Source of the DNA: a virus
Reading direction: 5' to 3' (one strand)
Length of the DNA: 24,403 nt
IMG/VR virus record: IMGVR_UViG_3300046740_000065
Span: 1-24,403 of that record
Shown here: piece by piece, positions 1-6,885 of the stretch
How the letters are laid out: every line of letters begins with the position of its first letter
Position numbering within the stretch: position 1 is the first letter of the stretch
Translations under genes and position numbers: made by a program
The notes under the pieces: model-generated
Told to the model about the DNA's origin: nothing
Database searches by the model: none
What the model saw: only the letters and a program-made list of their open reading frames with translations

Positions 1-2202
1 GCTAGCAACCGCCGTGATGTTAGTCGTCACGGTAACACCCTTCTTGACCTTCTTCTCACGATGCTTCTGCACAATCATTTCCGCAAGTTCCTTTGCAAAA
101 GCACCCTCATTCCACACCGGCTGGGCTTCACCCTTATTCATGGCCGCGTGGAAGTTCCGACGCTTAGTCTCAACCAATCCACCGATGTGCTGGTCGATAG
201 TTCCCTCAGCCTCAGGGCAGGTGATGTTAATGACATTCGACACCTGACCGATACGACGGAAGCGTCCCGGTGTAGCTTGGTCCTCATTCTGTGGATTCCA
301 CTGACGCTCATGCAGGATGCTATCTGCACAAGTCTGAAGGTTAAGACCTTCACCACATGCCAGCGTTGATGCAATCATGATGCAACGCTTGGTAGTGTTG
401 AAAGTTTCCTGCGTCTGGTAACCCTCAGGCTTGCCAGTGTGCTTCGACGTATACTGAAAGACGCTAACTTTCTCATCCTTCAGTGTCTGAGCCAACTCAT
501 ACCAATCAGGATTGCTACCCTTATCGGTATTGGTCAGTGCCGACAGCATCAACTCGCCAACATCCTTGTGATGAACGAATACCACCAGCTTTCTGTCAGT
601 GTCCTCGATGAACTGTTCAATGAACGACAGAGTAGCAGGAATCTTCGCCAATCCAGTGATATGGCGCATCCTCGACATCTTCGCGAGGATTTCGATGCTG
701 CTAATCTTATCTTCTTCGCCTGACATAACGTATTCGTTATACCAAGCAACGAAGTCGCTCACACTGTCATCGTATGAACTCTGTTCCAACTCATCAAGTT
801 GGACATTCAGCTTCATACGATTGATGTCAGGGAACTCGTCCATTACCTCATTGTATTCACGCCGAATGAGGAGCGATGAAACGTATTCCTTGAACTTCTC
901 AGGACGGCGAATACCGCCCATCTTCTTCTTGGAACCTTCCCAATAGAAGTCCACCCACGTATCAAGGTAGTTCTGATACGAGTAGAACTTGATAGGGTCG
1001 ATAAGGTTCAGCGCAGGGAAAAATTCACTGCCACGATTCTTCCATGGTGTTCCGGATAGCTCGATAACCTTACAATCGGCATTGGCTGAAACGAGCTTCC
1101 GAACTTCCTGCGTCCTCGAACTATCAGGGTTCTTGATTTGCTGGACTTCATCGAGAATGACAAGCTCGATACCCAGCTTGTGGAGTTTCTCACGGGGGAA
1201 ACGACGTAGCAAGTCATATGGGATAATGTAGAGTTTCAGGTTCGGCATCAGATAATCCTTCGACGTTGAGATTATCTGACTAATAAACTCCGGTCCAAGC
1301 CACGTCACAGCAGCCTTGAACCATTGGAATTTGATGGCAGACTTGGTAACTACCATCGTTTTCTTGTGCTTCTTGGCATGGAACTTCAGATATGCGAGGG
1401 CTTGCATCGTCTTGCCCAGCCCCATATCATCGAAGATTCCAAAACCTTTCTGCATTGCAAGTGCTGCTTCACAAGCGCGAGCACCTACAACCTGAAAATC
1501 ATACAGCTTGAACTCACCACACTTCCTGCACTGATTCGATGGAATGTGATTGGTTTTCGCTTCCTCACGCGTGGGCCAATCATGCTTACAGGCTGCAATC
1601 TCAGGCTTCCAGAAATTGCTCACCATTGTCTCAAACGGTGTGCCTTTCGGAATGATACGCTTGATGATATGGAAGCAGTCCAGCGTAATGAGCTTGACAA
1701 CATTACCCTGCTTGTCAACAGTCTCAAACGCGAACTTCTCAACTGCTACCTTACCACACTCCGGGCACTTGTCTTGTAGCCGTGTCACCTTGTGAGTTAC
1801 ATTCCTAACAACTTGCTCAACTACTTTCTCAGTTACCTCGACCTCAACACTGTGACCTGAGCGAATTGCATCAATCACATGCGCGGGAAGGTCAAGGTGT
1901 GAGCAGGGGAATGTATTCGTGCAACCAATCTCACGCGCCTTTGTAGCCCACACATCATTATGTCCCTGACGAGGACAAAGCGCGTGGGCTACTTCATGCA
2001 AGATTGTGTCGATAACTTCCTCACGCGGGTGAATGTCGATGTGATGACCATTCAGCAAGATGCACTTATCAGCATACATGCACTTGCCAAGAAACGGCAG
2101 GGTAATGTCAGAAGTAATCCTGACTCCCCAATCTTTTAGGCCGTAATCATCTAGCTTTTTACGGCACAGCAACGATGCTGCGTGTCGGTCCATTATGTTC
2201 AT
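1..2202 (-). CDS. SprT-like metallopeptidase fused to SNF2-family helicase (3' end outside window)
   Basis: Seen: 734 codons stay open to the window edge, so the C-terminus is missing. Residues 1-100 look like a SprT/Spartan-type zinc peptidase, with HEVAH at 69-73 and a third histidine at H81. Cys pairs follow (CPEC 146-149, CRKC 225-228) and probably bind zinc. An SNF2 (superfamily 2) ATPase follows: Walker A GLGKT 261-265, DEVQ at 351-354 (usually DEAH), SGTP 383-386, TLACGEGLNLQ 613-623 and Q642..R647..R650..GQ 652-653, which fits motif VI. Known: SNF2 proteins move along or remodel duplex DNA; SprT-type domains cleave DNA-bound proteins. Inference: it may clear proteins from phage DNA during replication or repair. 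The ATG at 2202 has GGGAG about 8 nt upstream and begins 2 nt after the preceding stop; a second ATG at 2193 is possible. Confidence 0.9.
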   Translation of the reverse strand, partial: MNIMDRHAASLLCRKKLDDYGLKDWGVRITSDITLPFLGKCMYADKCILLNGHHIDIHPREEVIDTILHEVAHALCPRQGHNDVWATKAREIGCTNTFPCSHLDLPAHVIDAIRSGHSVEVEVTEKVVEQVVRNVTHKVTRLQDKCPECGKVAVEKFAFETVDKQGNVVKLITLDCFHIIKRIIPKGTPFETMVSNFWKPEIAACKHDWPTREEAKTNHIPSNQCRKCGEFKLYDFQVVGARACEAALAMQKGFGIFDDMGLGKTMQALAYLKFHAKKHKKTMVVTKSAIKFQWFKAAVTWLGPEFISQIISTSKDYLMPNLKLYIIPYDLLRRFPREKLHKLGIELVILDEVQQIKNPDSSRTQEVRKLVSANADCKVIELSGTPWKNRGSEFFPALNLIDPIKFYSYQNYLDTWVDFYWEGSKKKMGGIRRPEKFKEYVSSLLIRREYNEVMDEFPDINRMKLNVQLDELEQSSYDDSVSDFVAWYNEYVMSGEEDKISSIEILAKMSRMRHITGLAKIPATLSFIEQFIEDTDRKLVVFVHHKDVGELMLSALTNTDKGSNPDWYELAQTLKDEKVSVFQYTSKHTGKPEGYQTQETFNTTKRCIMIASTLACGEGLNLQTCADSILHERQWNPQNEDQATPGRFRRIGQVSNVINITCPEAEGTIDQHIGGLVETKRRNFHAAMNKGEAQPVWNEGAFAKELAEMIVQKHREKKVKKGVTVTTNITAVAS

Positions 2203-2435: not shown

Positions 2436-3161
2436 CTAGTTTGTCTCAGACTTTGATTCGTTGATGCTCCGACGCAGCATGTTAGCCGCAGCTTCGACAG
2501 TAATACCGCGTGACACCACGACAGTTTGCAGAGTGAACTCGCTGATACCAAGTTCCGCCGCATACTTGCGAAGCTCAACCTTATCGAGCTTCGTAGCTTT
2601 TTTGGTCTGAGACGTGGAAACCCGCTTTACGGTAGGCTTAACAGTAGCAGGCTTGTAGTTGATATCAGCAATCTTCAATTTCTCACGTTCTTCGACACGG
2701 AGAGAATTGGCAAGCTGATTCAGGTAGACTTGGATAGCTTTCTGATGATTACCAGCCTCTACAATTTGCTGCTGGGCGTCAAAAGCTACCTGTTTGAAGT
2801 GATTAAATCTCTCCGTGAGAACTTCGGCAAGCGCGTATGGCTTGTTAGAAATCTCAGGATTCTCATCAATGGATTTCTTCAAATCCACGATGGCAGTAGT
2901 GGCAGCATTGAATAGGTCCGTGCGAACTTGGACCGCGCTATCAGTCAGGCGCGAAGCATCAATAACTTTCGCCTCAGGACTGCTAGCAAATGCCGCTACG
3001 CGTGTATCTTTCTGCTCTTGTGAAAGCTGAGTGCTGGCTGCTGATTCAGTAGCCCAGCATTCATCGCAGAACCACATGTTACCATAGTGACAGGTGATGT
3101 TGACGTCTACTTTATCGCAGACTTCACATTCACCTTTCTTTACTAGTTGCGCTATTGACAT
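2436..3161 (-). CDS. Cys-pair (zinc-binding?) hypothetical protein, 241 aa
   Basis: First gene of the leftward unit reading into the helicase. Seen: the N-terminus has CEVC at residues 13-16, a further Cys about 12 residues on, and CDEC about 8 residues after that, suggesting a small zinc-binding module. The middle (about 50-165) is helical in character and rich in Ala, Gln and Glu. A Lys/Thr-rich linker follows, then a compact C-terminal segment (KVELRKYAAELGISEFTLQ onwards) that could be a small helical DNA-binding domain. The ATG at 3161 has GAGGGAC just upstream. It borders the 1.1-kb repeat region, so a role in binding it is possible, but position is the only support. The family was not recognised. 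Confidence 0.8.
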   Translation of the reverse strand: MSIAQLVKKGECEVCDKVDVNITCHYGNMWFCDECWATESAASTQLSQEQKDTRVAAFASSPEAKVIDASRLTDSAVQVRTDLFNAATTAIVDLKKSIDENPEISNKPYALAEVLTERFNHFKQVAFDAQQQIVEAGNHQKAIQVYLNQLANSLRVEEREKLKIADINYKPATVKPTVKRVSTSQTKKATKLDKVELRKYAAELGISEFTLQTVVVSRGITVEAAANMLRRSINESKSETN

Positions 3162-3448
3162 TGTGTCCCTCAGTCTCAGATTCTACAATATTATCGACCG
3201 TCGGGCCGTCGGCCCAGAGCCATAAGGTGCAAGAATCATACCTAATCCGGCGCAGCCCACTTCCACAATATGATGGGGTGCCGTAAAGTGTCACACCATA
3301 TGTTGGGGCTACAGCAAGTCTCGTGCCACCGGAATTTTGGATAAATCCAACGAAATGGATACGGAAGATTGGATTTTATGTCCTATTTAGAGGACACTTT
3401 TATTAAGGTATTGCGCCTATACTACTATAACTAGTATTCCGGAATATA

Positions 3449-3514
3449 CTTCCTACCTCATTCTTACCTCAGGCTTACCCCTTTCTTACCTCACCCCTAC
3501 CTCATTCCTACCTC
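3449..3514 (-). repeat. left iteron array: six 11-bp repeats, consensus GAGGTARGRAT on the minus strand
   Basis: On the plus strand TACC recurs at 3454, 3465, 3476, 3487, 3498 and 3509, exactly 11 bp apart. Read on the minus strand, the units are GAGGTAGGAAT, GAGGTAGGGGT, GAGGTAAGAAA, GGGGTAAGCCT, GAGGTAAGAAT and GAGGTAGGAAG. Eleven bp is about one helical turn, so a bound protein would sit on one face of the DNA. It mirrors the array at 3776-3841. Confidence 0.93.
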
Positions 3515-3624
3515 GGTTTTCCCCGTAAGTCGTTGAGCCACAAGGGTTTAGCTCGACCCCCCTGATTCCGGTAGGGTCCGGCATACACCTTGGAGTGTCC
3601 TAGATAGTGGACGGGGTAGGGTAG

Positions 3625-3660
3625 TATAATATTATATATTAAAAAAAAAAAAAAAAAAAA
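3625..3660. other. AT-rich core: TATAATATTATA palindrome followed by an A20 tract
   Basis: A 12-bp palindrome (3625-3636) is followed by 20 consecutive A (3641-3660). The midpoint of the two flanking 11-bp arrays is 3645, inside the A tract. Such a tract is stiff and easily melted, which suits an origin unwinding element. The exact A count in an assembly may be unreliable. A TATAAT match lies here on both strands but without a -35 element. Confidence 0.8.
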
Positions 3661-3775
3661 TAAAAGAGAACAACTCCCCCCACTACCGGAGGCGCTCAGA
3701 GGGTGCCCCAGCCTACCCCCGGAGAGGGAGGGGTCTAGCTAACTCGTTGCACTAGAGGCACTTAGAGCGATTCGG

Positions 3776-3841
3776 GAGGTAGGAAAGGGGTAGGAGTAGG
3801 GTAGGAATACGGTAGGGCTAAGGTAAGAGAGAGGTAAGAAG
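3776..3841 (+). repeat. right iteron array: six 11-bp repeats, consensus GAGGTARGRAT on the plus strand
   Basis: GGTA recurs at 3778, 3789, 3800, 3811, 3822 and 3833, exactly 11 bp apart. The units are GAGGTAGGAAA, GGGGTAGGAGT, AGGGTAGGAAT, ACGGTAGGGCT, AAGGTAAGAGA and GAGGTAAGAAG. Copy number, period and consensus equal those of the left array, in opposite orientation. Confidence 0.93.
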
Positions 3842-3895
3842 CACGTTCCATTATTGTATTGGTTGCATGTTTCAAAATAACAGATGCGAAGATAC

Positions 3896-4246
3896 GATTA
3901 GCAGAAATACTTTCGGTATCCGAAACAATGATTAGCAAAAACACTTCAGGTATCCTGAACCTCGCGCGATGGCCCTGCTTATGGAGTGCCCGCGATTAGC
4001 AGAAGGCATAACACCGTGGCCCTACTCGTGATTAGCAATAGGGGAAGTTCACATAATCGCGAGGTTTATAATATTATAAAGGGTTGTTGATTAGCAAGGG
4101 GACTTCGGGTATCCCGAACTTCCCGGATGGAATTGATTAGCAATGACACTACAATTAGCATTGGGACTTCCGGTATCCGGAACAGTAGGCAGGCGACTTG
4201 ATTAGCAGCTGGTGAACAACACTTGCCCTCGATTCTCTGATTAGCT
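3896..4246. repeat. nine GATTAGCA-type direct repeats, four coupled to covarying hairpins
   Basis: GATTAGCA or a one-base variant starts at 3896, 3930, 3994, 4030, 4089, 4135, 4153, 4200 and 4239, always in the same orientation. At 3896, 3930, 4089 and 4153 it is followed by exactly 5 nt, then ACTT, then a hairpin: TTTCGG-TAT-CCGAAA, TTCAGG-TAT-CCTGAA, TTCGGG-TAT-CCCGAA and TTCCGG-TAT-CCGGAA. The composite unit is 31 bp (3896-3926, 3930-3960, 4089-4119, 4153-4183). Stem positions change in pairs, so base pairing or dyad symmetry is conserved. Spacing between units is irregular. The function is unknown. Confidence 0.92.
4065..4080. repeat. 16-bp perfect AT palindrome containing ATAATATTAT
   Basis: TTTATAATATTATAAA is its own reverse complement. 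Its core ATAATATTAT also occurs at 3626-3635 and 6483-6492, and a near copy (AATATTAT) lies at 3187-3194. All copies found are in the two non-coding regions. Confidence 0.85.
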
Positions 4247-4258
4247 ACTGAGGACAGT

Positions 4259-4291
4259 CCCCCTTTCGGGGGTCCAGCCCTACTCGGCTGG
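4259..4291 (-). terminator. double hairpin at the end of the leftward small-gene operon
   Basis: Read leftward, CCAGCC-GAGTAG-GGCTGG (4291-4274) carries the stop codon of the 79-aa gene in its loop. It is followed at once by CCCCC-GAAA-GGGGG (4272-4259), a GNRA-type tetraloop stem. No U tract follows, so this is not a classical intrinsic terminator; it could instead protect the 3' end or pause transcription. Confidence 0.5.
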
Positions 4292-4519
4292 TATGAATCC
4301 TTTCTCGCCCTGGACGTATACAATCTTGCGGTCACTGAACAGTGGACCTGCGACGTGTAGTCTGCGCCACACATGTGGATGTGACCAGAGTAACTGGCAT
4401 CCACACTTGCAGGGTAGCAGTATGTCTCCCTTGATGCGAAGTTCTACTGCTGTGAGAAGTGCCCCACAATCGGGGCACCTCTTGGGTGGAGCGAAACCCT
4501 TCATACCGAATCTGAGCAT
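4280..4519 (-). CDS. small zinc-ribbon-like hypothetical protein, 79 aa
   Basis: Last gene of the leftward small-gene operon. Seen: CPDC (about residues 17-20) and CKCGC (about 37-41) form a plausible four-Cys zinc site; the C-terminus has short basic and hydrophobic strands. The start is decided by AAGGAG at 4526-4531, which is 6 nt from the ATG at 4519 but only 3 nt from the adjacent ATG at 4522; either is possible. It begins directly after the upstream gene's stop, implying coupled translation. Small zinc-ribbon proteins in phages may bind nucleic acid or host proteins; no specific function can be assigned. Confidence 0.75.
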   Translation of the reverse strand: MLRFGMKGFAPPKRCPDCGALLTAVELRIKGDILLPCKCGCQLLWSHPHVWRRLHVAGPLFSDRKIVYVQGEKGFIPAE

Positions 4520-4522
4520 CAT

Positions 4523-4699
4523 CTACTCCTTTACTCTCACCTTGAAGATGCGAAGTTTCTGTGTAGGGCCAACTGCACGACGAGCGTAGTAATACGCATT
4601 CTCGGCAGTCTTGAAGGTGGATACTAACACCCACATACCGAAGGTGTAAGTATTGTCGGGATTCTCGTCGAGCCTACGAACTTCGTAAGTGTAGTTCAC
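4523..4699 (-). CDS. hypothetical protein, 58 aa, GTG start
   Basis: Leftward small gene whose stop codon abuts the next start. The frame is open up to an ATG at 4759, but that has no ribosome binding site. The GTG at 4699 has GGGAGG 5 nt upstream (4705-4710), so it is the better start. The protein begins with an alternating NYTYEVRRLDENPDNTYTF and has an Ala/Tyr-rich helix (ENAYYYARRAVG) and a basic C-terminus (KLRIFKVRVKE). The layout suggests a small alpha/beta fold. The family was not recognised. Confidence 0.65.
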   Translation of the reverse strand: MNYTYEVRRLDENPDNTYTFGMWVLVSTFKTAENAYYYARRAVGPTQKLRIFKVRVKE

Positions 4700-4771
4700 C
4701 GTTGCCTCCCGATAGTGATACCTACATGTAAGCAGATACCAGTCCATACGAAGAAGCATACGAGAAGAAGA

Positions 4772-4789
4772 TGGGGCGTCATTGCCCCA
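4772..4789 (-). promoter_or_regulatory. intercistronic GC hairpin with a stop codon in its loop
   Basis: TGGGGC (4772-4777) pairs with GCCCCA (4784-4789); the 6-nt loop holds most of the TGA stop (4779-4781) of the 52-aa gene. It is one of three related GC hairpins at junctions of this operon (also 5239-5267 and 5474-5495). Possible roles are mRNA processing, stability or tuning of translation. Confidence 0.55.
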
Positions 4790-4937
4790 CCTTCCTAACT
4801 ACTTCCCTACGCTGCCACGACACTCCAACCCACTTGAGACTGATAACCTTTATCTCACGGTAGAGAGTGTCACCAATCTTGATGTAGATACGCTCCCACT
4901 TGCATGGGCCTGTTGGACGGTTGGGGATGTTAGACAT
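4779..4937 (-). CDS. hypothetical protein, 52 aa
   Basis: The ATG at 4937 overlaps the end of the 92-aa gene by 8 nt (ATGTCTAA), typical of translationally coupled phage genes. The frame could extend to 5060, but that would overlap the 92-aa gene fully, so the short start is preferred. The protein is basic with Trp and Ile (CKWERIYIKIGDTLYREIKV then SLKWVGVSWQRREVVRK), suggesting a tiny beta-barrel-like nucleic-acid-binding protein; that is a guess from composition. Confidence 0.6.
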   Translation of the reverse strand: MSNIPNRPTGPCKWERIYIKIGDTLYREIKVISLKWVGVSWQRREVVRKVGQ

Positions 4938-5208
4938 CTGCCAACATCCTGCCGAGAAGTGCAATCGGCACGTATCCGTATACGCGAAGTTCACCTTCTT
5001 GCTCGTCGAGAATCTCAGCGTAACCGTCGAGATACTCAGGCCCACGCGTCCACATGCCAAGTTCTACATGTGTATACGGACCTTCGTTGTCTCTCGGTGT
5101 GCTGTAACCACCGACTCCACCGACTACAGAAATACGTCCGTAGCGTGGATGTTGATAGTTCATGTGCGCGTTCATGCTACGCTTCACAATTTCGGCAATC
5201 GTATCCAT
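4930..5208 (-). CDS. hypothetical protein, 92 aa
   Basis: Leftward small gene in the operon read from the 5923-5951 promoter. The ATG at 5208 has GGGAG 9 nt upstream. An N-terminal amphipathic helix (MDTIAEIVKRSMNAHMNY) is followed by a Gly/Tyr-rich middle (GVGGYSTPRDNEGPY) and an acidic then hydrophobic end (LDEQEGELRVYGYVPIALLG). No known motif was recognised. The 9-bp GC hairpin at 5239-5267 lies just upstream of its ribosome binding site. Confidence 0.7.
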   Translation of the reverse strand: MDTIAEIVKRSMNAHMNYQHPRYGRISVVGGVGGYSTPRDNEGPYTHVELGMWTRGPEYLDGYAEILDEQEGELRVYGYVPIALLGRMLADV

Positions 5209-5238
5209 TGTTGTGGACTCCCAATCATTGGGGAAAGT

Positions 5239-5267
5239 GATGGGGGCAATATACAGTCGCCCCCATC
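5239..5267 (-). promoter_or_regulatory. intercistronic hairpin, perfect 9-bp stem
   Basis: GATGGGGGC (5239-5247) pairs perfectly with GCCCCCATC (5259-5267) around an 11-nt loop. It lies between the 67-aa gene's stop (5280) and the 92-aa gene's ribosome binding site. The following bases on the leftward transcript are not U-rich, so it is more likely a processing or stability element than a terminator. Confidence 0.7.
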
Positions 5268-5279
5268 TAACAGGTAACG

Positions 5280-5483
5280 CTATCGGTAGAGATGTTGATA
5301 CTTCTCTCGGTGCTGCTGGAGAAGGATATCTATCGCCATCTCACGCGATACTCCGGCAGACTGTAGAACTTTCACAGCCTTACGGATTTTCTTGATTGTT
5401 GCAAGGGGAAGGAAAAGCAGGTAGATGGTATTGTCCACGATTGTCACCCATTCCGGAAGTAGTGAGAAAAAGTGGGGCGTCAT
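5280..5483 (-). CDS. hypothetical protein with a possible membrane segment, 67 aa
   Basis: The ATG at 5483 has a G-rich ribosome binding site (GGGGGCGG, 5 nt away); the in-frame TTG at 5498 would lie upstream of that site and is rejected. Seen: a hydrophobic stretch at about residues 9-31 (EWVTIVDNTIYLLFLPLATI) may span or lie on a membrane, followed by a basic amphipathic helix and an Arg/Lys/His-rich tail. The start codon sits in the loop of a GC hairpin (5474-5495) and the ribosome binding site in its stem. The family was not recognised. Confidence 0.65.
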   Translation of the reverse strand: MTPHFFSLLPEWVTIVDNTIYLLFLPLATIKKIRKAVKVLQSAGVSREMAIDILLQQHREKYQHLYR

Positions 5484-5495
5484 GTTGACCGCCCC
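5474..5495 (-). promoter_or_regulatory. hairpin that may sequester the ribosome binding site of the 67-aa gene
   Basis: GGGGCG (5474-5479) pairs with CGCCCC (5490-5495) around a 10-nt loop. On the leftward mRNA, the stem holds the G-rich ribosome binding site and the loop contains the ATG (5481-5483). Translation would need the stem opened by ribosomes arriving from the upstream gene or by a regulator. Confidence 0.55.
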
Positions 5496-5518
5496 CAAAG
5501 TGTTCCACTGCTACCTAG

Positions 5519-5869
5519 TTACTCGGTTGCAGTCTGCGCGGCAAGCAGGGAATCGACCTGCTTACGTGCAGCATCTTCCGGAACACCCAGCCGAATGTAG
5601 TCGCGCACCATGCGCTCCTTGATTTCATCCGGCGTGACTTCCGACGGGCGATACGGCAACAGTGCAGCCTGATACGCATTGCTCCGCGCATTGGCTTTGA
5701 GCACATCATTGACCATTGAAGTGATGTCCCACTTCTTTTCGGCAATGACAGCCGTTGCCTCATCGAGAGTGTTGCACTTTCGGAATTCGAAAGTTTTCTC
5801 GATTTTGTCGCCCGCCTGCGGGTGACCCTCGGGGATTGCAAAGGTGAACTTGCCAACCAGTGTTTCCAC
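5519..5869 (-). CDS. hypothetical protein, 116 aa, GTG start; first gene of the leftward operon
   Basis: The frame is open to an ATG at 5932, but the -10 element of the promoter lies at 5923-5928, so that ATG is upstream of the transcript. The GTG at 5869 has a perfect AAGGAG 5 nt upstream (5875-5880) and is chosen; an ATG at 5905 has no ribosome binding site. The N-terminal half has strands (VETLVGKFTFAIPEGHPQAG), the middle is helical (TLDEATAVIAEKKWDITSMV), and the C-terminus is helical and Arg/Ala-rich (DEIKERMVRDYIRLGVPEDA). As first gene behind a strong promoter it may be abundant early. The family was not recognised. Confidence 0.75.
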   Translation of the reverse strand: METLVGKFTFAIPEGHPQAGDKIEKTFEFRKCNTLDEATAVIAEKKWDITSMVNDVLKANARSNAYQAALLPYRPSEVTPDEIKERMVRDYIRLGVPEDAARKQVDSLLAAQTATE

Positions 5870-5922
5870 AACGACTCCTTGGGTTGACCGTGGCGGATTT
5901 GCCATCGGTCCAGCGTAGAACC

Positions 5923-5951
5923 ATTCTAGCATGGGCCAGACAATTTGTCAA
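5923..5951 (-). promoter_or_regulatory. strong sigma70-like leftward promoter
   Basis: On the minus strand, TTGACA (5951-5946) and TAGAAT (5928-5923) are separated by 17 nt, close to ideal for a bacterial housekeeping sigma factor. Transcription would start near 5916, giving a leader of about 47 nt to the GTG at 5869. The -35 overlaps one of two ATTTGTCAA copies (5943-5951 and 5964-5972) 21 bp apart, which could be operators. Confidence 0.85.
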
Positions 5952-6282
5952 GCCCCGAGTAGTATTTGTCAAGGTGCCCCCGTTGTCGCCCCCGACCCTG
6001 TTAATGCTTCGGGGAGTAGTGAGCACACCTATTCCGACGGACTTTTATCTTAATCGGGCCTGTCCTATCGGCCCCCCGTCAAACCCTTGCGCGGTAACTT
6101 CCACCTTGTGGCCGGTCCGCGCTCGGGCGACACCATACTATAAAGCATATGCCATACCATATGACTTTCGCTTCCGGAAGTGCTGTAACTCCTTTGTTCT
6201 CAACAACTTACACTTTTCGTAGGCGAAGGTGTATTCTACCTCGGGGCAGACACGATGTCCCTAGGTTGGCAGACTTTCCCAT

Positions 6283-6459
6283 GGTTGCACGCGGCTGCAC
6301 ACTCTCTAGTCCGACGCGGGGTAGAATTTCACAAGGCTGCGCTGATTGACATATTGTTTTACAAAATTGCACAGAATTTCACAGGGTTGCACACAATGGC
6401 TCTTCCCACCCCTGCATACCCCTGCACAGCAATGCACACAGTTGCACACTTTTGCGCGG
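6283..6459. repeat. array of about 14 degenerate 10-bp units, consensus rrTTGCACAn
   Basis: TGCAC or a close variant starts at 6286 and 6296; then at 6328, 6338, 6358, 6368, 6378 and 6388, all on a 10-bp grid with a degenerate site near 6348; then at 6413, 6423, 6433, 6443 and 6453. The best units are GGTTGCACGC, AATTGCACAG, AATTTCACAG, GGTTGCACAC and AGTTGCACAC. The 10-bp period places sites on one DNA face. It lies 110-285 bp upstream of the rightward promoter. It may be a regulator-binding, packaging or partition site. Confidence 0.85.
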
Positions 6460-6540
6460 ACATGGCAATCATCTGACTCGACATAATATTATTGGGACTC
6501 CTCGAATTTTCCCAGAAAAAAAAAGTTATTTTATTGATTC

Positions 6541-6552
6541 ACTTCCGGAAGT
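6541..6552. repeat. 12-bp palindrome ACTTCCGGAAGT upstream of the rightward promoter
   Basis: A perfect 12-bp palindrome lies 14 bp upstream of the -35 element. Its core TTCCGGAA also occurs at 3437, 5451, 5576, 6172 and 6628. Possible operator half of a phage regulator. Confidence 0.7.
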
Positions 6553-6566
6553 AAAGAATAATAAAC

Positions 6567-6595
6567 TTGACTTTCAGTCCGGGTCGTGGTAGACT
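6567..6595 (+). promoter_or_regulatory. strong sigma70-like rightward promoter for the virion operon, inside an inverted repeat
   Basis: TTGACT (6567-6572) and TAGACT (6590-6595) are 17 nt apart, with an A9 tract 43 bp upstream that could act as an UP element. Transcription would start near 6602, 50 nt before the first gene. A perfect 9-bp inverted repeat, TTTCAGTCC (6572-6580) and GGACTGAAA (6613-6621), brackets the -10 and start site. Its centres are 41 bp apart, about four helical turns, suggesting an operator pair. Confidence 0.82.
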
Positions 6596-6651
6596 CACCA
6601 TGCCATTCCGAGGGACTGAAAATCAGCTTCCGGAATAACTAGGAGAATTGT

Positions 6652-6885
6652 ATGTCAGCAACCGTCACGATTACGGCAAAGTCGGGACCGAACATCGCCA
6701 ATACTGCGGCAGTCTACACAGGTATTACTGGCGTTCTGTTCCTTCCCGACCGTCGAATCATTCAGTTGTTCACAGGTGGAGATACCAACTCACCTCCTGA
6801 ACACGAGTTTGATTTGACTGGAACGACTACTATTACTGGAACAATCGCGGGAACTGCTGGAACTCTGACCCTGACTATCTCGTAA
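6652..6885 (+). CDS. small beta-rich hypothetical protein, 77 aa
   Basis: First gene of the rightward virion operon, with AGGAG 6 nt before the ATG. Composition is Thr/Gly/Ile-rich with alternating strands and no Cys; the C-terminus (TITGTIAGTAGTLTLTIS) is strongly beta-like. A role as a small capsid-associated or accessory protein is plausible from position and composition only. Confidence 0.8.
   Translation: MSATVTITAKSGPNIANTAAVYTGITGVLFLPDRRIIQLFTGGDTNSPPEHEFDLTGTTTITGTIAGTAGTLTLTIS

Follow-up and report, generated by a model that had tools for sequence, protein, structure and literature searches.

A repeated bipartite element, a short box followed at a fixed distance by a hairpin whose stem varies in sequence while its pairing is kept, was found in a noncoding region of a tailed-phage fragment and at the same locus in related phages. 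It is a real, conserved bipartite DNA element situated at a probable phage origin. We put at about even the chance that it is read by structure, box and hairpin being recognized together by a replication protein of the phage. No description of such a bipartite DNA element was found in the literature. To our knowledge, replication origins have been identified for a minority of uncultured phages, and recognition of a folded DNA strand whose sequence is free but whose pairing is kept is rare, the well-studied cases being N4 promoters, primase sites and relaxase sites.

Anatomy of the noncoding region

The window (the whole stretch of DNA analysed, 24,403 nucleotides) is a 24.4-kb tailed-phage fragment. 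Its early genes run leftward (SNF2-type helicase, 241-aa protein, small proteins, 137-aa protein) and its structural genes rightward (terminase, major head protein); the fragment ends before the primase gene. The noncoding region lies between the 5' end of the 241-aa gene (3161) and an 80-aa reading frame starting from 4280. The features referred to below are as follows.

2436–3161, − strand: gene for the conserved 241-aa protein, directly left of the noncoding region
3162–4279: whole noncoding region (about 1.1 kb), proposed replication origin
3450–3514: left arm of 11-bp phased repeats (..TACCTCATTCT..), inverse to those of the right arm
3641–3660: A20 tract, midway in the inverted-repeat region as its centre
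3776–3839: right arm, 11-bp phased repeats (GGTAGGAAAGG..)
3896–3926, + strand: unit 1, box GATTAGCA (3896–3903), 5-nt spacer, AC, hairpin TTTCGG-TAT-CCGAAA (3911–3925)
3930–3960, + strand: unit 2, box GATTAGCA (3930–3937), hairpin TTCAGG-TAT-CCTGAA (3945–3959)
3994–4001, + strand: bare box GATTAGCA, without unit hairpin
4030–4037, + strand: bare box GATTAGCA, without unit hairpin
4067–4078: palindrome TATAATATTATA, a dyad 5' of a box
4089–4119, + strand: unit 3, box GATTAGCA (4089–4096), hairpin TTCGGG-TAT-CCCGAA (4104–4118)
4135–4142, + strand: bare box GATTAGCA, without unit hairpin
4153–4183, + strand: unit 4, box AATTAGCA (4153–4160), hairpin TTCCGG-TAT-CCGGAA (4168–4182)
4200–4207, + strand: bare box GATTAGCA, without unit hairpin
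4239–4246, + strand: last box GATTAGCT, bare, without unit hairpin
5519–5932, − strand: gene for the conserved 137-aa protein, the query for collecting relatives

The first-pass annotation had reported four 31-bp units with a 5-nt spacer, and a search of the whole record with the pattern ATTAGCA-N5-ACTT-NN-GGTATCC-NN-AA bore out their positions and layout: the four + strand copies listed above were recovered with no other copy, and the reversed control pattern gave 0 matches. All four variable pairs that it had given (TC/GA, CA/TG, CG/CG, CC/GG) are present in the units. The five boxes without a hairpin (3994, 4030, 4135, 4200, 4239) had been overlooked. The window has 11 copies of GATTAGC where 2.9 are expected, a count reached by 0 of 100 shuffles, and eight of these copies, together with one AATTAGC, lie on one strand inside 350 bp. 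Unit 3 carries the AT dyad TATAATATTATA immediately 5' of its box. More generally, AATATT was found 5–20 nt 5' of 21 of the 90 boxes in 62 regions of relatives plus the window (4.1 expected), often as the centre of a larger dyad.

Conservation and covariation in related phages

Relatives were gathered by searches with the terminase and the 137-aa gene, yielding upwards of 80 contigs that belong to this phage group, and more were added by way of the 241-aa gene; many of the more than 80 contigs carry the same locus. The same GGTATCC heptamer stands in the same place in the units of L012, L054, L066, L212 and L220, and units with other stems and loops are found in L014, L015, L082, L266, L278, L298, L301 and others. 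L066, a member of the phage family, was among the matches listed when viral contigs were scanned with a loose 15-base pattern; of five contigs found with a tighter pattern, L204, L205 and L207 were rejected as chance matches inside genes, without palindromes. The box is phage-specific and usually repeated within one phage (GATTAGCA, GATAAGCA, AATAAGCA, AATTAGCA, GGTGAGCA, AGTAAGCA, GATGAGC). Hairpins across the phages have a stem of 5–8 bp and a 3-nt loop. There are one to four units per genome, usually one, on a single strand; they are almost confined to the proposed origin region and nearly absent elsewhere in the genomes.

Not every relative has the hairpin, and several boxes lack one: L032, L034, L035, L040, L041, L217 and L280 carry a box and a CCGCCCC-like stretch with the unit hairpin missing, and a strict unit scan of G002, G003 and G019 found no unit. 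The CCGCCCC-like stretch of those seven often lies directly beside a terminator-like hairpin. The last box in relatives is usually followed by a GG-GGGAAA-like stretch, then by a G+C-rich hairpin and then by the leftward genes. In L054, L212 and L219 a second stem (CTTCGC...GGCGAAG), followed by ATAATATTAT, is located about 10 nt ahead of the first box. The 137-aa protein diverges by roughly 11–49% among the unit-bearing phages compared, so the stem changes do not stem from one recent duplication. Beyond this group, no relative of the 137-aa gene was found in a collection of prokaryote genomes from 84,980 species, and thus no host; no relative of the 241-aa protein was found among 50,697 phage records, in which the best TerL relatives show only 24–33% identity.

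Hairpins are tied to boxes by position. A perfect hairpin (stem of at least 6, loop 3–4) begins 7–9 nt past 21 of the 90 boxes, against about 0.5 expected from the same regions. With the loop set at 3 nt and no more than one of the 6 pairs allowed to fail, the loop centre lay 22 nt from the box start in 11 cases, 23 nt in nine and 24 nt in five (background 0.8% per position). Since longer stems begin nearer the box, it is the distance from box to loop centre that is constant, at 22–24 nt whatever the stem length, or about two helical turns.

The stems also covary. Across 20 units, taken from the window and its relatives, 97.5% of stem cells were paired compared with 61% in shuffles, and the covariation score was 0.912 compared with 0.221 shuffled, a value matched by 0 of 500 shuffles; all six stem pairs were doubly changed, and sliding the pairing partner by one base abolished the covariation. 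As these 20 units were selected for good pairing, the enrichment of hairpins beside boxes (21 of 90) is the independent evidence. The window's four units alone have two variable pairs, and their covariation was equalled by 15 of 500 shuffles, for which reason it was rejected as proof of selection; covariation is suggestive from the window units and strong once the relatives are included. The composite element with fixed spacing and covarying stem, as first described, is conserved in relatives, as enrichment, offset and covariation alike show, and where uncorrelated stem changes in homologous phages had been named as a sign against it, the relatives' changes proved to be correlated.

It had also been stated that such compensatory change shows selection. 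The covariation stands; the conclusion needs more than compensatory change, because polymerase template switching is also able to keep hairpin arms paired, and hairpins with apparent compensatory changes can arise and persist in that way (PMC8794818). The case for selection is made instead by the fixed box-to-loop offset, the preference of loop type for one strand (see below) and conservation in phages that have diverged. We suppose that switching might be favoured by forks that stall at an origin, and palindromes so maintained would have little function of their own; this account nevertheless leaves unexplained the fixed box offset, the constant orientation of TAT and GTA loops and the confinement to box copies, and we consider it very improbable.

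A double-stranded operator or partition region is a less remote alternative, though an unlikely one. Here a repressor or regulator would bind the boxes, and a second regulator or a dimer the dyad, to control the leftward early genes and not replication. Many direct copies of a phage-specific box are typical of operators, the AATATT at some 10 nt from the box could serve either strand as a promoter −10, and promoter-like matches number 7 against 1.9 in shuffles. A dimer that reads sequence, however, does not need arms that vary freely and yet stay complementary, within and between phages; the range of the arms, from TTTTCGC to TCCTACC to ATATGC, makes a duplex reader of them unlikely. The one-strand loop preference, the symmetric A-tract arms and the position of the skew minimum are likewise left unexplained by an operator. 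CRISPR-like repeats, REP/IS200 ends and relaxase nic sites were set aside as readings, since the locus keeps its place between the same genes and no gene of those kinds was seen.

Nature of the hairpin

The first-pass annotation had rightly seen that pairing is kept and had left open whether this is in DNA or RNA; the evidence now favours DNA. Among the 120 stem cells of the 20 units there were 0 G-T pairs, and in an open search for mismatch candidates G-T (6) was no commoner than A-C (8) or A-G (9), with T-C at 2. Loops other than TAT are mostly GNA on the + strand: GNA was counted in 9 of 19 loops on the + strand and 0 on the − strand, in a count that ignores kinship. GNA triloops with G-C closing pairs form exceptionally stable DNA mini-hairpins (PMC4686876). 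The window hairpins, having TAT loops, are outside the GNA class. Calculated DNA folding energies on the + strand are weak for 5–6 bp stems (−3.4 to −5.6 kcal/mol). Rfam 15 covariance models gave no match at E≤1 over 3100–4700. From the missing G-T pairs, the DNA-type GNA triloops of the + strand and the want of an Rfam match, we judge a + strand DNA hairpin likely.

The reading in which box and hairpin act in a transcript of either strand, as a small RNA, leader or terminator, has some points in its favour: T8 follows the hairpin in L012, two window units are terminator-like on the − strand, and the hairpins fold as RNA too. The RNA z-scores are weak (−0.5 to −2.1), however, and G-U pairs are absent with G-T candidates not in excess, the loops are of DNA type and Rfam is without a match, so that we hold an RNA element to be quite unlikely.

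A DNA hairpin could also serve as an extruded promoter, with an RNA polymerase using the + strand hairpin as template in the manner of N4 virion RNA polymerase, whose transcripts begin at a set distance of about 11 nt from the loop centre, to make leftward early transcripts. The N4 early promoters have a hairpin of 5–7 bp with a 3-nt loop, a conserved G+C-rich heptamer and a sheared G-A loop, and their stem bases may vary provided that pairing stays (PMC4496689). The phage hairpins share the short stem, the 3-nt loop, the G+C-rich central heptamer and stem bases that are free if paired, and with its GNA loop the + strand would serve as template for transcripts that run leftward, as the early genes do. 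Against this, no single-subunit RNA polymerase (PF00940) was matched in 13 long relatives (T7 control, 9.9e-110), although a divergent enzyme may escape this profile. The longest stop-to-stop frame in seven long relatives was 1,114 aa, in pieces of at most 20 kb whose ends may cut frames, compared with the roughly 3,500 aa of N4 vRNAP (PMC12633501). With neither a vRNAP-sized nor a T7-type polymerase gene detected in relatives, membership in the N4 type fails. The phage unit further differs from N4 in having a separate box 22–24 nt from the loop and in its confinement to one region; a genome usually has a single unit, and bare boxes would be left unexplained. Such a promoter role is, in our estimate, also quite unlikely.

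Proposed origin and candidate reader

We return to the preferred reading, a DNA element of the phage origin read by structure. In most relatives an A15–25 tract lies between two sets of 11-bp phased repeats, the right one GGTAGGAAAC-like and the left one its inverse, and the six long relatives with the tract each have a single A/T run of at least 13. The cumulative GC-skew minimum is within about 2.6 kb of the A-tract in 6 of 6 long relatives and within 124 bp in 4 of 6, by raw or detrended measure (50 bp in G001); gene orientation contributes to GC skew, so that this position is support rather than proof. From the A-tract, the repeats and the skew we infer that 3162–4279 is a replication origin, the A20 tract between inverted arms (3450–3839) being probably its core. 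Further inverted stretches of CTAAGT...ACTTAG type are present within 3450–3839. Left of the A-tract, at 3379–3396, is a hairpin TGTCC...GGACA followed by CTTTTAT; the form TGTCCTC-AAAAGT-GGACAC is also present in L012 and L303. Contigs often end at the A-tract, and L054, L058, L079 and L082 begin at or near it; in G004 (46 kb), an overlapping contig, both ends carry it, which points to a genome that is circular or permuted.

The DNA would open 235–580 bp left of the units, where the A-tract enclosed by the inverted 11-bp repeats is probably the unwinding centre. The + strand at the units, single-stranded or extruded by supercoiling, would then fold into the short hairpin, and box and hairpin might be bound by a reader that starts or loads replication there. 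The likeliest candidates are an initiator of primase/helicase type, the DUF3987 protein in the relatives, and an origin-binding protein, for example the neighbouring 241-aa protein. Right of the A-tract the + strand would be the lagging-strand template of a rightward fork, so that leftward extension of a primer made at a unit would pass the A-tract and establish a second, leftward fork, as at single-strand initiation sites. We tentatively regard this as an undescribed origin type, somewhat short of an even chance, in which an A-tract between inverted arms is accompanied by one-sided units, each a lineage-specific box with a GNA or TAT mini-hairpin 22–23 nt away, read on single-stranded DNA by an initiator or primase co-evolving with the box. 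As dozens of related phages show this anatomy, both the origin and a recognition code (box against protein variant) are testable, and a box that co-evolves with its protein, if that is true, would offer a natural series of specificity variants.

The annotation had known no named element of this form. The unit does belong to no named family, although functional analogues exist in the N4 early promoter hairpins and the RSF1010 ssi sites; it is akin to both and a member of neither. RSF1010 ssiA and ssiB are 40-nt elements read by the plasmid-encoded primase RepB', in which a short DNA hairpin with a sequence-specific single-stranded flank lies near an iteron-type origin (PMC4434180). The phage unit resembles them in anatomy, and its hairpin and box would likewise act as single-stranded DNA near an origin. 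RSF1010, however, has one ssi per strand and the phage one to four units on a single strand; the ssi start motif GTG is in the 3' tail, whereas the phage box is on the 5' side and GTG is not conserved (the − strand bases following the four window hairpins are GTA, GTG, GTC and GTC). In place of RepB' the phage would have a putative primase of DUF3987 type. Structured DNA at a probable origin, with pairing kept over sequence, links the unit to pRN1 and BIP-1, which encode their own primase-helicase and whose proposed stem-loop origins are poorly conserved in sequence with conserved pairing (PMC4234260); theirs is a single large stem-loop of about 100 bp, unlike the phage units, which are repeated, only 30 nt long and have a box apart from the hairpin. 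In carrying one word in direct repeat next to A+T-rich DNA, the region also resembles an iteron origin.

Plasmid iterons and the repeats of the P4 type I ori likewise consist of a short word, specific to the replicon, that stands in several direct copies next to A+T-rich DNA. In iteron origins the replicon's initiator binds the repeats, and replication is lost when they are deleted; we know of no covarying hairpin at a fixed offset from iterons. As to the candidate readers, DUF3987 was found in 15 of 15 long relatives, with a match to PHROG 'DNA primase'. The 241-aa protein has N-terminal Cys pairs (zinc-ribbon-like), long helices and a C-terminal three-helix part; AlphaFold pTM was low for it (0.30) and for the 137-aa protein (0.29), and Foldseek with the 241-aa model gave no meaningful match. 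The relatives also have genes for a PolA that includes a UDG domain and for a Sak4-like protein, as well as a weak SSB match; in L231 the DNA polymerase A (4011–6683, − strand) has an N-terminal domain of the uracil-DNA-glycosylase superfamily. A SprT-like metallopeptidase domain is fused to the SNF2 helicase in the window (1–2202, − strand) and in L231 (13063–15273, − strand), an assignment made by Pfam on the G001 homologue, with a matching helicase hit for the window protein.
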